From contig JACRQE010000003.1 of assembly GCA_016222815.1 (NCBI GenBank), forward strand, positions 310,001 through 374,000: 64,000 nucleotides of DNA. Reading direction: 5' to 3'. The translations under genes were made by a program, and so were the position numbers. The notes below the pieces were generated by a model. It ran no database searches, had not been told where the DNA came from, and was given only the letters and a program-made list of their open reading frames with translations. This DNA is from Candidatus Uhrbacteria bacterium (GTDB taxonomy: Bacteria; Patescibacteriota; Patescibacteriia; 2-12-FULL-60-25). Numbering within the stretch: position 1 is the first letter of the stretch; every line of letters starts with the position of its first letter. This document shows, piece after piece, positions 41,891-46,272 of the stretch.

Positions 41891-42705
41891 AGACTTTTCA
41901 CAGCCTCAAGGTACATGAATAACGGAATCTCTCTTCTTGATGAATTCTCCGCATTCGCTCTCGGCCCAGAATCGCTGGTCTTGTTCGATGCCCACTCCTC
42001 GACATTCCTGACCTGAAAACCTGCCGACCTTAGCCATTTGAAATATGTCTGGAGCGGTCTATGGTACGAAAACGTGACTTCGCTCGAGTTCGAACCGGGA
42101 TGCATCTGGATTTCGCTTTTGAATTCCGAAAGATACCTGTCAACTCTCCGGTACTGCACGCCATCCTGATCATCCCAGCCCCAACTGCTGTGTGTCGGGA
42201 TGCGGAAAGCAGGATGGTTCAAAACCAGGAATAATGAGCCGTTTGGCACCAAGACTCTCTCACACGCTTTAAAGACCTCATCTGGATTATGGATATTCTG
42301 GATTGCTAAAACGCTGATCACTTTATCGAACGACCCATCCTCGAATGCATCTAATTCATGCGCCGGTGAAACTTGATAATCAATCTTCAGGCTTGGCGAC
42401 ATGATTTTCGCTTTTGCGATGAGTTCCGGTGAAATATCAACTCCGCATACCCTCGCTCCCGCAAGCGCGAATTCTCGACTGAAGAACCCTTGTCCGCATG
42501 CTAGATCCAGAATCTTTTCACCCTTTTTCGGAGCTACCAGTCTCTTCAGGTTCGGCAATATCAAATCGCTTTGGTATGTCCCTCCTTGCTCCAACAGGAC
42601 GTTATACCAATCCGCGGATTTCCCCCACGAAGTTTTACGCGTCACCGGCCTTCTGCCGCGTCCATCATTCGGACGTTGGTTAAAGGATTTGTTCATCGGA
42701 ATCAA
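41887..42705 (-). CDS. Class I SAM-dependent methyltransferase
   Basis: A 272-aa protein. After a basic N-terminal tail and KSADWYNVLLEQGG, the Rossmann motif I is ILDLACGQGFFSREFALAG, motif II reads CGVDISPELI, and FDKVISVLAIQNIHNPDEV plus ERVLVPNGSLFLVLNHPAF give motifs IV-VI. This matches the methyltransf_11 group. The acceptor is not identifiable. It overlaps the M20 peptidase stop and the rsmE start by 4 nt each, showing translational coupling. Confidence 0.88.
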   Translation of the reverse strand: MIPMNKSFNQRPNDGRGRRPVTRKTSWGKSADWYNVLLEQGGTYQSDLILPNLKRLVAPKKGEKILDLACGQGFFSREFALAGARVCGVDISPELIAKAKIMSPSLKIDYQVSPAHELDAFEDGSFDKVISVLAIQNIHNPDEVFKACERVLVPNGSLFLVLNHPAFRIPTHSSWGWDDQDGVQYRRVDRYLSEFKSEIQMHPGSNSSEVTFSYHRPLQTYFKWLRSAGFQVRNVEEWASNKTSDSGPRANAENSSRREIPLFMYLEAVKSL

Positions 42706-43793
42706 GGACAGCAGTAAATTTCCAAAAATGTTTTTACGACATTCGTATATATTTCAATCGAATCAATATCGACCCATTCGTTTTTTCCGTGATGACCTTC
42801 TCCCTTAGGCTGGCTCAAGATGACCGGAATGCCTAAAGATGTGAAGAATCGGGCATCAGAAGAGCCATAGTCTAGCGCAAATTGAGGTTTCAGCCCGTTT
42901 ATGCGCATAGCCTGCTGGTAGGCTTTTACTACAGCGTGTTCGCTGTTTACATACACCAGTGGCTCATTCAACAACTGCTCAATTTTGATATCTTTTTCGA
43001 TTTTTCCCTTGATCATTTCGACAATTTTCTTAGGTTCGTCTTTTTCCGTGAACCTTATGTCGCAGACGGCAGAGGCGTATTCTGCGACACGGTTATTGGC
43101 GGATCCGCCCTCGATATGCCCTATATTGCACGTCGATATCCAATGATCGTTAGGATGGTCTTCGTGTGGTGTGAAACAGGATAAAACTGCCGTAACCGCT
43201 TCAGTCAGCTTGACTATCGCGTTATCCCCTAACCAAGGCACCGATCCGTGTGCCGCTTTGCCCTTGGCCGTCAATTTGAGCCACATTGCGCCTTTCTCCT
43301 TTTGGACAATCTTGTTCGGTGCCTTTCCGCCATCCGGCAAGATTACGGCGCTGGCGCTATAACCGTTGTCTATCAGGAATTTCGTGCCGTCAAATCCGCC
43401 GATTTCTTCGTCTCCCGTCAGCATCAAACCTACGCTAGCGCTCATCTTGGCCCGTTCTTTCATGATTGCCATCAGGACGGCAATGCCGCTTTTCATGTCT
43501 AAAGCCCCTCGGCCATAGATACGCCCAGATTTTTCATATGGTTTGAATTGATGATCCTCCCCGTCAACTACGTCGAGGTGTCCAGCAAGGAATACTTTAG
43601 GGATTTTTTCGCCGTGCGTTACGACAATTGAATTCACTCCGTTGTGCACGAATCGTTTAACCTTCAAGTTTGTGCCCTTGAAATACCTTTCTACGTAGTC
43701 AAAACAGTGGCTGAGTTCGCTCGGTCGGTTCAAAGTCGTCCTGAACTTGATCAAATCCTTGGTCAATTTAACCATCTTTTGTAGTTCGTTCAT
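42702..43793 (-). CDS. M20 family metallopeptidase (ArgE/DapE-like)
   Basis: A 363-aa amidohydrolase. The zinc ligands are visible: VFLAGHLDVVDG (His), YGRGALDMKSG (Asp), MLTGDEEIGG (Glu-Glu), ILPDGG and a C-terminal GEGHHGKNE (His). A dimerisation domain lies between (LKLTAKGKAAHGSVPWLGDN). It could be a dipeptidase, deacetylase or DapE-like desuccinylase; the sequence does not decide. The promoter is an extended -10 (TGC TATCAT, 43809-43801) ending 8 nt before the ATG, so the operon M20-methyltransferase-rsmE-PEBP-acylphosphatase starts with a leaderless message. Confidence 0.88.
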   Translation of the reverse strand: MNELQKMVKLTKDLIKFRTTLNRPSELSHCFDYVERYFKGTNLKVKRFVHNGVNSIVVTHGEKIPKVFLAGHLDVVDGEDHQFKPYEKSGRIYGRGALDMKSGIAVLMAIMKERAKMSASVGLMLTGDEEIGGFDGTKFLIDNGYSASAVILPDGGKAPNKIVQKEKGAMWLKLTAKGKAAHGSVPWLGDNAIVKLTEAVTAVLSCFTPHEDHPNDHWISTCNIGHIEGGSANNRVAEYASAVCDIRFTEKDEPKKIVEMIKGKIEKDIKIEQLLNEPLVYVNSEHAVVKAYQQAMRINGLKPQFALDYGSSDARFFTSLGIPVILSQPKGEGHHGKNEWVDIDSIEIYTNVVKTFLEIYCCP

Positions 43794-43809: not shown

Positions 43810-43833
43810 CAATATTGGGCTAATGTAAGAAAA

Positions 43834-43858
43834 GAGGGGACGGCGATGCCGTCCCCTC
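43834..43858 (-). terminator. Terminator of the ATP-grasp gene
   Basis: A perfect 11-bp stem (43834-43844 with 43848-43858) with a 3-nt loop; the minus strand then reads TTTTCTTAC. It is 8 nt past the ATP-grasp gene stop. Confidence 0.9.
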
Positions 43859-43866
43859 AAAGAAGT

Positions 43867-45249
43867 TCAGAGCGGGAGCTCTGATGCAAGCTGATGCATG
43901 CCGGCGTTGAGTTCCAGGGCATGTCTGGTGGTCTCGGCCAATGCGACATAACCCATGGATCCACCCGCTGGCGGGATAGCTACGATGACACCTTCGCCGC
44001 GGCCAGGATCCCAGTCCAGGCCGAGGTCCTGCATCACCTTAAGCACCAGGCCGAACGTCGCCCTTTTGTCGAGCTTCAAAGCGTCGTTCGAAAGCGTCAC
44101 CACGCCGTGGACATTGTCAGGGCGCAGCCGTCGCTTGATTTCGTTCACGTGGATCATCCCGCCGTAGCGGAAATTGCTTTCGAACGCCACCAGGGAGCTG
44201 TCCTCGAGGACTCCCCAATCGATTCCGCAATAGCCGTACCCGCCGCGTTTGCGGACATGTTCGGCATACACCCTGGACATGCATATCATCTCGTCAAGCA
44301 GGACGTGGCGCAATCCGGACGGGGCGAAAGAGCCGATGTAGCACGTTTCCTTGATGATTTGAGTCGAATGGGAGACCAGACGCACGCCCTGCGGAAGGAT
44401 GCGCATCATGGTGGCCGGAGACTGCTTGACCTTGAGGACGGTTTCGACCAGTACCGTGCCATTTGCCCAGATTTCGACCGGATTCATGCGCGGTACGATA
44501 AACTCCTCCAGCGTATTGCATTCGGCTAGCGCCAGCATCTGCTTCGTGACCAGGATGTTTCCCAGCCCCCCGGCGCCCAGGGCTTGGCGCAGCATGACGG
44601 CCCCATGACGCCTGAATATTTCATCCGCCGCCTGGCAGACTTCCTTGATACCCCTGGCATGGACTGAATTCGGCACCGGGATGCCGATTTTCTGGCAGAC
44701 GTTCTGGAAGATTGCCTTGTCGTTCAGCTCGGCCACCCGGTTCTTGGACACGCTCTCCTGCGTCATTCCTGCGACTTTCAAGCCGGTGGCTTTTGCCAGC
44801 TCGAACACCTTGGGGTGCTGGATGAACGGCGTGATGCTCCAGCGTCGTCGGTGGCCTTCGCGGGCGATGTCGGCCAAGAGCTGCTTATCCTCCAGGATAT
44901 TGTCCAGAAGCGACAAAGGCTTAGAGGTGTCCGTGTAGCGAGAGCGCGGCACGAAAGTCATAGGCTTGAATCCGTACAGACCGCGGAAGTACTCCTCGTA
45001 GTCTGTCGGAAGCTGTTCGTACAGGATTGCCGCGTCGCCAGACTTGAGGTAGTGGACCGCCCGAGGGGCGACATCCACGCACTTTTGGGCGAGCTTGCCC
45101 ACCGCCTGACCTGCCATGGTGATGGCGTCATCGATATTGGTCACGATGATGCCGTTGTCGTAGTTGCCCACGAACAACTGGCTTTGCTCGCCTTCTTCTT
45201 GGCTACCGGTCATCGTTTCCGACTCTGCTGTCATCAGATGAGCCTGCAT
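43867..45249 (-). CDS. ATP-grasp ligase-like protein (PGM1-type suspected)
   Basis: A 460-aa protein. The start is the ATG at 45249 because AAAGGAG lies 6 nt upstream. An N-terminal pre-ATP-grasp region (LFVGNYDNGIIVTNIDDAI) is followed by a central ATP-grasp-like part: LNDKAIFQNVCQKIGIPVP, GAVMLRQALGAGGLGNILV, GYCGIDWGVL and ESNFRYGGMIHVNEIKRRL near the metal site. The C-terminal portion (VIVAIPPAGGSMGYVALAE) recalls PGM1-related peptide ligases. This suggests amide or peptide-bond formation with an unknown acid and amine. It is monocistronic, and its long structured leader indicates dedicated regulation. The family call is moderately sure, the reaction is not. Confidence 0.6.
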   Translation of the reverse strand: MQAHLMTAESETMTGSQEEGEQSQLFVGNYDNGIIVTNIDDAITMAGQAVGKLAQKCVDVAPRAVHYLKSGDAAILYEQLPTDYEEYFRGLYGFKPMTFVPRSRYTDTSKPLSLLDNILEDKQLLADIAREGHRRRWSITPFIQHPKVFELAKATGLKVAGMTQESVSKNRVAELNDKAIFQNVCQKIGIPVPNSVHARGIKEVCQAADEIFRRHGAVMLRQALGAGGLGNILVTKQMLALAECNTLEEFIVPRMNPVEIWANGTVLVETVLKVKQSPATMMRILPQGVRLVSHSTQIIKETCYIGSFAPSGLRHVLLDEMICMSRVYAEHVRKRGGYGYCGIDWGVLEDSSLVAFESNFRYGGMIHVNEIKRRLRPDNVHGVVTLSNDALKLDKRATFGLVLKVMQDLGLDWDPGRGEGVIVAIPPAGGSMGYVALAETTRHALELNAGMHQLASELPL

Positions 45250-45256
45250 CACTGTC

Positions 45257-45271
45257 TCCTTTGGCAAAGGA
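45257..45271 (-). promoter_or_regulatory. Hairpin over the Shine-Dalgarno site of the ATP-grasp gene
   Basis: TCCTTTGCCAAAGGA on the minus strand is a palindrome whose right arm contains the AAAGGAG ribosome-binding site (45262-45256). When folded it would hide the site. Two more hairpins lie just upstream in the leader (45275-45287 CCCC/GGGG; 45293-45317 CGTCAGC/GCTGACG). Confidence 0.6.
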
Positions 45272-45336
45272 CGTCCCCTCTTCGGGGCAGATCGTCAGCC
45301 AATTAAATTCGCTGACGGTCCGCGCCGAAAAAACAA

Positions 45337-45361
45337 CAGCCACCGCGTTTTGCGGTGGCTG
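45337..45361 (-). terminator. Leader terminator (attenuator candidate)
   Basis: A perfect 10-bp stem (CAGCCACCGC with GCGGTGGCTG) with loop AAAAC, followed on the minus strand by TTGTTTTTTCGG. It lies between a promoter at 45486-45458 and the ATP-grasp gene. The sequence GCGGTGGC of its right arm also occurs upstream at 45402-45395, where it could pair with the left arm instead. Confidence 0.75.
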
Positions 45362-45378
45362 GTCAATCGCTCGTAGGA

Positions 45379-45450
45379 CTAAAGCAAAGTCCCTGCCACC
45401 GCGTCCGGGGTAAACAGGTTAAAAATGTAACTAGTGGCTCTGCTTTGCAT
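45379..45450 (-). CDS. Possible 23-codon leader ORF
   Basis: An ATG at 45450, at or within one base of the predicted transcription start, opens a frame of 23 codons (MQSRATSYIFNLFTPDAVAG then TLL) ending in TAG. There is no Shine-Dalgarno site. Codons 17-20 contain the segment able to pair with the leader terminator. It shows no run of one regulatory amino acid, so it does not look like a classical amino-acid leader peptide. Confidence 0.4.
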   Translation of the reverse strand: MQSRATSYIFNLFTPDAVAGTLL

Positions 45451-45457
45451 GATTTTG

Positions 45458-45486
45458 AATTTACTTGTGTCGCGAATATCTGTCAA
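45458..45486 (-). promoter_or_regulatory. Promoter of the ATP-grasp leader transcript
   Basis: A perfect TTGACA (45486-45481), a 17-bp spacer and TAAATT (45463-45458) on the minus strand. The start is predicted near 45451, giving a leader of about 200 nt before the ATP-grasp ATG. Confidence 0.8.
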
Positions 45487-45495
45487 GTGGTTGGT

Positions 45496-46272
45496 TTACT
45501 TCAGCGAGAAGGTTGTCCTTACGATTCCCGTCACTTTCTTGTCCTTTGTCGTCAAATCATACGCCCCGTAATCCGATACCTCGGTCGAATTCACTGCCGT
45601 TATCTGGAAGACCCCCATACTTGCGTTTTGGAGCTTGCCGATGCTCGAGCCTGTCGACTTCACTATCCTGCCTGCTCGTTCCTGGGCGTTCTTGGTCGCC
45701 TCCTCCAACATGTCGAGCTTAAGGTCAGCCAGTTTCGAATAGTAGTACTCCGGATTGTTGCTGCTGAAGAGGATCCCGCTGTTGGCGAAAGCCGATTGGG
45801 CATCCTGTGCTATCTTGGTCACCTCATCGACTTTTGGAGATTCGACCATTATGGATTGCAGTATCGTATATCCGACGGTTCGGTTGCTCCCGCAATTCTG
45901 GTTGCCGAATTTGTCCCAACCCATGGGGTTCTGACCTTCGCAAACCGGCGTCAGCGTCGGTGGTTGGACCGTTATTTCCTTGTCGCTGACCCCATTGTTC
46001 TTCAGATACTCCGTGATAGTCAACAAGTCTGCCTTTATCTGGTCGCTCCCTTGTTTGATGTCATTCAATCCTGCCTGGCGTGAAAAATTGCCTGTCCATT
46101 TGATCGTATCCGACGTCACCAACCTTTCCGTCGAACCTGTAACGCTTATTGTATCCCCAAGTCTTTTGGCCTGGAGGAAGGCCAGCGATCCCACGACCGT
46201 GCAGGCAATAAGCGCAATCCCGAGGACCAGAGCCGCGAATGTATTTGATGTCCTTTCCATAAAAACTGGCAT
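45496..46272 (-). CDS. SIMPL domain (DUF541) exported protein
   Basis: A 258-aa protein with an N-terminal membrane segment (about residues 12-33) and an outside SIMPL domain: ISVTGSTERLVTSDTIKW, ITEYLKNNGVSDKEITVQPP, VGYTILQSIMVESPKVDEV, LEEATKNAQERAGRIVKSTG, SIGKLQNASMGVFQI. The order and wording match DUF541/SIMPL proteins, whose function is unclear (periplasmic or surface, linked to stress in some species). Two Cys residues (PVCEG, NQNCGS) may pair. A second possible start is Met5. TATACT about 18 nt upstream may be its -10. Confidence 0.85.
   Translation of the reverse strand: MPVFMERTSNTFAALVLGIALIACTVVGSLAFLQAKRLGDTISVTGSTERLVTSDTIKWTGNFSRQAGLNDIKQGSDQIKADLLTITEYLKNNGVSDKEITVQPPTLTPVCEGQNPMGWDKFGNQNCGSNRTVGYTILQSIMVESPKVDEVTKIAQDAQSAFANSGILFSSNNPEYYYSKLADLKLDMLEEATKNAQERAGRIVKSTGSSIGKLQNASMGVFQITAVNSTEVSDYGAYDLTTKDKKVTGIVRTTFSLK

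Follow-up and report, generated by a model that had tools for sequence, protein, structure and literature searches.

A probable trp-type leader-peptide attenuator before a BesA-like ATP-grasp ligase gene in Patescibacteria

The locus described here raises the question of what the leader of an ATP-grasp gene does and which signal it may respond to. It lies on the minus strand of the window (the whole 64,000-nt stretch of DNA analysed, from a genome of 1.3 Mb that is 98% complete) between a SIMPL-domain gene (45496-46272) and the ATP-grasp gene itself (ATG 45249, end 43867), which is followed downstream by genes for an M20 peptidase, a methyltransferase and an RNA methyltransferase. Our findings make it quite probable that the leader is a ribosome-mediated transcription attenuator of the trp type, which controls a BesA-like ATP-grasp ligase and is perhaps read through Phe codons.

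The elements of such a switch (Table 1) are present. A sigma-70-like promoter (TTGACA-17-TAAATT, 45486-45458, minus strand), a 23-codon leaderless ORF beginning at about +1 (45450-45379) and a strong intrinsic terminator with its U-tract were all found where the initial annotation had placed them. The ATG at 45450 is 7 nt past the -10 hexamer, hence at about +1, and start codons 6-9 nt past the -10 are also seen in genomes G166 (two leaders), G151, G152 and G681. The terminator (CAGCCACCGC-AAAAC-GCGGTGGCTG, 45361-45337, then TTGTTTTTT) has 10 pairs and a free energy of -20.1 kcal/mol. The repeat that had been reported is there as well: ACGCGGTGGC occurs at 45404-45395 within the leader ORF, which thus contains segment 2, and again at 45348-45339 in the right arm of the terminator. 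The leader copy can pair with the left arm, and this antiterminator pairing (GCGGUGGC:GCCACCGC) and the terminator exclude each other. The antiterminator duplex, at -21.5 kcal/mol, was not equalled in any of 1000 dinucleotide shuffles of the upstream sequence (p=0.001), a chance that comes nearer a few per cent when corrected for selection of the site from a 64-kb window with some 26 terminator-like sites. Against a background of 159 terminator-like sites in 291 kb of stretches from the same genome, upstream copies of the right arm of at least 9 nt were observed at 2 sites where 0.2 were expected (computed with shuffled upstream sequence), and the window terminator ties for the longest copy of all.

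Table 1. Coordinates of the leader and its surroundings in the window, and of RNA sensors before related ligase genes (L numbers)
Feature	Position	Strand	Sequence, basis or remark
Sigma-70-like promoter	45458..45486	-	TTGACA-17-TAAATT; sole promoter-like site found in 44800-46000
Leader ORF, 23 codons, near-leaderless	45379..45450	-	MQSRATSYIFNLFTPDAVAGTLL*; start codon at about +1
Putative control codons 8-13	45412..45429	-	TAC ATT TTT AAC CTG TTT (Y I F N L F); a ribosome stalled no farther than these would permit the antiterminator
Segment 1	45438..45446	-	AAAGCAGAG; pairs with CUUUGCUUU at 45389-45381 as a weak protector stem (fold; z -1.2)
Segment 2, antiterminator arm	45395..45402	-	GCGGUGGC
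Segment 3, terminator left arm and antiterminator partner	45352..45361	-	CAGCCACCGC
Segment 4, terminator right arm	45337..45346	-	GCGGUGGCUG
U-tract	45328..45336	-	TTGTTTTTT
Long imperfect post-terminator hairpin, 63 nt	45274..45336	-	Fold; left arm includes the U-tract
Small hairpin with Shine-Dalgarno AAGGAG (45261-45256)	45254..45272	-	-5.1 kcal/mol; not above background
ATP-grasp ligase gene, BesA-like / PreAtp-grasp	43867..45249	-	ATG 45249; Pfam PF18604, NCBIfam BesA (far below cut-off), PDB 8ynd and 8yi6
Terminator after the ATP-grasp gene	43833..43857	-	
M20 metallopeptidase gene	42702..43793	-	Recurrent ligase neighbour
T-box leader before GCS2-type ligase gene	L062 1167-1401		
T-box leader before GCS2-type ligase gene	L069 2335-2579	-	
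T-box leader before GCS2-type ligase gene	L070 1186-1428		
T-box leader before GCS2-type ligase gene	L076 2288-2574	-	Below gathering score
SAM riboswitch before PreAtp-grasp-type paralogue	L093 1054-1159		
SAM riboswitch before PreAtp-grasp-type paralogue	L094 2141-2245	-	

How these parts may work together can be put as follows. RNA polymerase would start at about 45451 and a ribosome would load on the AUG at the very 5' end of the transcript. Having moved past about codon 14, it would cover segment 2 (45402-45395), so that the terminator (3:4) forms and transcription stops near 45328. A ribosome held at codons up to about 13 by uncharged tRNA for Tyr, Ile, Phe, Asn or Leu - most likely Phe (codons 10 and 13) - would instead leave segment 2 free to pair with segment 3 before segment 4 has been synthesised, and the ligase gene would be transcribed. 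At equilibrium, folding lets the terminator beat the antiterminator once arm 4 is out, and therefore the switch must be kinetic. The window's 1:2 protector stem does not stand out from shuffles (z -1.2), so the model predicts read-through for an untranslated leader, and the unoccupied leader does favour the antiterminator (0.90-1.00) before arm 4 is made.

The same layout recurs before related ligases. Preceding the ATP-grasp gene of G166 are a promoter (TTGACG-17-TAATCT), an ORF starting 8 nt after it (MNYTKQNNSVVIGLFIIKSPNW), a terminator, a long hairpin and a Shine-Dalgarno sequence, and a GCS2-type ligase gene of the same cluster carries a second, recognisably related leader of this kind (MKYMQNNFFFFFFIHPNR). 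Scanning 358 kb (the 291 kb of own genome and six homologue contigs) for the combination of promoter, start codon (5-9 nt past the -10), ORF (8-40 codons) and terminator (within 200 nt) turned up three matches, namely the window locus, the GCS2 leader of G166 and a GCS2-type leader in G151 (MQSKQAIQPTPNLWWCARNLP), and none in the reversed and five shuffled controls; with criteria fixed after the window and G166 were known, these counts measure rarity and are no independent prediction, the G151 leader being the new one. Across the class, 20 of 381 genomes have GCS2-type relatives; nine homologous leaders upstream of such ligases, and one upstream of trpB, code for short peptides in which Trp/Phe codons occur. 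Runs of these residues (FFFFFF, WFFFF, WQFFFF, YWATW, WWW, WW) mark the peptides MKYMQNNFFFFFFIHPNR, MNYRINKINSWFFFFTDTEVG, MSQSIDFRQIIKSNGWQFFFFTEERFS, MTNFSKNNSCNYWATWLSDGKLVFDLVN, MNKLVSANLNHWWWTSSDARS, MQFLISNLLNWWWTLRAHAQGSGFA and MQSKQAIQPTPNLWWCARNLP and, at trpB, MQIAWWWTVFWR. A terminator follows the Trp/Phe peptide in G152 (SWFFFF), G606 (GWQFFFF), G089 and G079 (both WWW) and G662 (WRW) and also, ahead of an amidotransferase-ligase pair, in G681 (YWATW) and G695 (YWYSW), whose peptides have YW--WLSDG-LVFDL-N in common. With 11 other leaders combined, antiterminator pairing reaches p 2e-7, a value carried by five or six of them; taken alone, the pairing is not significant in the G151, G089, G079, G662 and G667 trpB leaders. 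Between the anatomy of the window leader and these homologues, the earlier proposal of an attenuator with a translated leader has gained support.

A compact operon in G667 (L080 3-3650, minus strand) comprises a trpR-like gene, the leader MQIAWWWTVFWR, trpB, a GCS2-type ligase gene and a trpS-like gene, and MQIAWWWTVFWR is a candidate trp attenuator in a Patescibacterium. The motif GTTGTTTTGATGT, considered as a family marker, is shared by both G166 leaders and that of G151 and absent from the window leader; the six further matches across the class are in other places, for the most part within coding sequence, and the motif was therefore rejected as such a marker.

Where along the ORF the switch sits was modelled by masking, codon by codon, the nucleotides under a stalled ribosome and by checking upstream pairing of the left arm before the right arm exists. 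In the five leaders that combine such Trp/Phe codons with a clear antiterminator (G166B, G152, G606, G681 and G695), the stretch in which stalling permits the antiterminator runs to within about one codon of the final Phe or Trp control codon (control codons in the relatives being picked by eye, and G606 giving an uneven plateau whose boundary was not called automatically at most footprint settings), and boundaries move by no more than 1-2 codons over downstream footprint edges of 11-17 nt. The G166A boundary follows V-V-I-G-L-F-I-I-K, and that of the window falls at Phe13/Thr14, right after Y-I-F-N-L-F (codons 8-13). That control codons count as far as the last stalling site favouring the antiterminator has been set out before (PMC1183508). 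Phe10 and Phe13 stand three codons apart, as do the Trp codons of G681 and G695, and Phe is therefore taken as the most likely signal, a tentative choice that we would rather doubt than defend; Tyr, Ile or Leu are possible too. Whether translation itself, a small molecule or a protein provides the signal had been left open by the initial annotation, on the ground that the ORF has no run of a single amino acid. That ground stands, yet the choice has narrowed to ribosome position on codons up to about 13 and, on the masking model, such a codon-position switch points to an amino-acid signal rather than to a small-molecule aptamer.

A related account shares the ribosome-position switch and differs in the signal only. 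Here slow or blocked translation in general (owing to an antibiotic, for example), and not shortage of any one amino acid, would relieve termination. The mixed control codons of the window (Y I F N L F) and the preference of its unoccupied leader for the antiterminator speak for this idea; however, related leaders have amino-acid-specific runs and paralogues of the ligases have amino-acid-specific sensors, so to our minds it is unlikely, albeit the best placed among the alternatives.

Close relatives of the ATP-grasp gene are few. A search of 41 genomes of its family found it in its own genome and one relative only, a single-protein scan of the whole genome collection found no relative and an alignment-based scan of that collection returned only the four genomes already known. 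G015, whose homologue is the closest (44% identity), shows a short plain leader without terminator, and the G085 homologue (40% identity), which lies behind a gene that reads as panD-like, has no leader. Hence the suggestion that leaders of close homologues lacking terminator or repeat would speak against the attenuator has a divided outcome: both nearest homologues lack the leader, but more distant ones have the layout. Among the homologues, no close orthologue was found for the window leader stems, and aligning the window leader with those of G166 revealed nothing convincing beyond the promoter. A DNA match of 30 nt in G035, located within a coding gene, was put down to chance. As a side observation, the ATP-grasp frame of G085 (L003 1416-1560) seems shifted near its start, reading LFVGNYDEGITCAV* and then TNIDGAF in another frame, which is either a sequencing error or a real frameshift.

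The plain leader of the closest homologue also speaks for another reading, whereby the terminator, situated as it is downstream of a co-oriented gene, merely ends the SIMPL-domain gene (stop 45496), the ATP-grasp gene is served by an undetected promoter or by read-through, and the repeat is due to chance. Yet 135 nt separate the SIMPL stop from the start of the terminator, against about 10 nt for the ATP-grasp stop and the terminator that follows it; a promoter lies between SIMPL stop and terminator, and scanning 44800-46000 showed no sigma-70-like site between terminator and ATP-grasp gene. With the repeat at p=0.001 and homologous leaders in existence, we consider this reading improbable. 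SIMPL synteny was set aside as a test of it, the sole genus relative with a SIMPL gene having it in another neighbourhood.

Beyond the terminator, the region had been described as two more hairpins and a palindrome with the ribosome-binding site. Instead of two hairpins we find a single long imperfect one (45336-45274), and the small Shine-Dalgarno hairpin (45272-45254) is indeed there. A second, translational checkpoint, in contrast, was not borne out: this small hairpin is within background, 6 of 34 genes with a Shine-Dalgarno sequence in the sampled genome being equally structured, and is thus not distinctive. The whole post-terminator region of the window folds with z -4.5, and in all nine leaders where this region exceeds 50 nt it folds better than shuffles (z -2.8 to -5.9), against a background in which 12 of 99 upstream regions of the own genome reach z -2.8 or lower. 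At a guess, the long hairpin may protect read-through RNA that is not translated against Rho or nucleases, or may provide a site for RNase III. Near-perfect hairpins of about 24 bp, with compensatory differences, lie behind the terminators of two paralogous leaders in L044 (4900-4970 and 7790-7850), and by sequence reading the two post-terminator hairpins of G166 keep their pairing despite changes on both sides.

As for the regulated gene, its protein has a PreAtp-grasp domain (Pfam PF18604), matches two solved ligases (PDB 8ynd and 8yi6) and matches the NCBIfam model BesA (propargylglycine-glutamate ligase) far below the model cut-off, from which we infer a BesA-like gamma-glutamyl--amino-acid ligase. 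For the GCS2-type partners the match is to the YbdK / glutamate-cysteine ligase group, likewise below cut-off, and such a ligase is found in trpR-trpB-ligase-trpS operons. An M20 peptidase gene accompanies the ligases in L044, and M20-like genes, judged from sequence, stand beside a ligase in L041, L043 and L086. In G023, of the same family (L086 1734-6999), sequence reading likewise gives RsmE-like, methyltransferase, GCS2-type, M20 and DnaX-like genes and no ATP-grasp gene, where the window counterpart reads RNA methyltransferase, methyltransferase, M20, ATP-grasp and DnaX-like; these arrangements suggest that either ligase fold may fill one and the same role.

Other RNA sensors precede members of both ligase groups. 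T-boxes stand before GCS2-type ligase genes at gathering score in G022, G726 and G041 and below it in G654, and where the specifier usually lies their alignments show GAAAUUGG, the specifier apparently being UGG (Trp). SAM riboswitches precede ATP-grasp (PreAtp-grasp-type) paralogues in G662 and G747. The window leader itself matches neither RF00230 (T-box) nor RF00162 (SAM riboswitch) nor any other Rfam family, and a small-molecule riboswitch or protein-binding attenuator with an incidental short ORF - conceivable in that paralogues use SAM riboswitches and T-boxes, that the window ORF has no single-residue run and that the order of the pairing arms would allow segments 1 and 2 a pseudoknot-like element - is very improbable given this lack of an Rfam match, the ORFs with Trp/Phe codons kept at the switch point of related leaders and the peptide sequence shared by G681 and G695. 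The pseudoknot-aptamer idea was put aside in favour of the simpler ribosome model.

Staying with the trp-type attenuator, we think the ligase is probably tied to amino-acid shortage, as in relatives these gene families bear the same kind of switch or else other sensors of amino acids. Going further, and with somewhat less conviction than doubt, one may envisage across this class of Patescibacteria a set of amino-acid-specific ligases, each wired by an RNA sensor to scarcity of its own amino acid, as a hitherto undescribed retention or salvage regulon. This would combine ATP-grasp or GCS2 folds, M20 peptidase or class-1 amidotransferase neighbours and a leader-peptide attenuator, T-box or SAM riboswitch, with the structured post-terminator element belonging to the leader-peptide version. 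Gene regulation in Patescibacteria has hardly been studied; they are reported to be without pathways for making amino acids, and an inducible expression system is still to be developed for them (PMC11665869, a 2024 review). That two ligase families carry trp-type attenuators, T-boxes and SAM riboswitches would mean that these cells sense single amino acids via RNA leaders. Control codons or sensors may thus offer substrate hypotheses for uncharacterised ligases, and the leaders could serve as natural regulatory parts. In the literature we searched, outside which most subscription journals lie, no attenuation or T-boxes were found for Patescibacteria or the candidate phyla radiation.

Ribosome-mediated attenuators of the trp and phe type are known from trpL and pheL of enterobacteria. 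Like these, the window leader combines a promoter, a short leader ORF, an antiterminator and an intrinsic terminator that exclude each other and putative control codons just before the switch point. Unlike them, it belongs to uncultured, ultrasmall Patescibacteria, its ORF is near-leaderless with mixed hydrophobic codons, its 1:2 stem is weak, a long hairpin follows the terminator and the regulated gene is that of an amino-acid ligase. Control codons for one amino acid, typical of the trp type, are present in the relatives (FFFFFF, WFFFF, YWATW), whereas the window has the mixed series Y I F N L F. In Actinobacteria, candidate trp, trpS and leuS attenuators have been predicted in the same way (PMC1262725). 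T-boxes (RF00230), found before GCS2-type ligases of the same class and not matched by the window leader, follow the same logic in that uncharged tRNA prevents termination, and SAM riboswitches (RF00162) precede the ATP-grasp paralogues of G662 and G747, while the window leader is without a SAM aptamer. The proposed mechanism is classical and the regulated gene family unusual.
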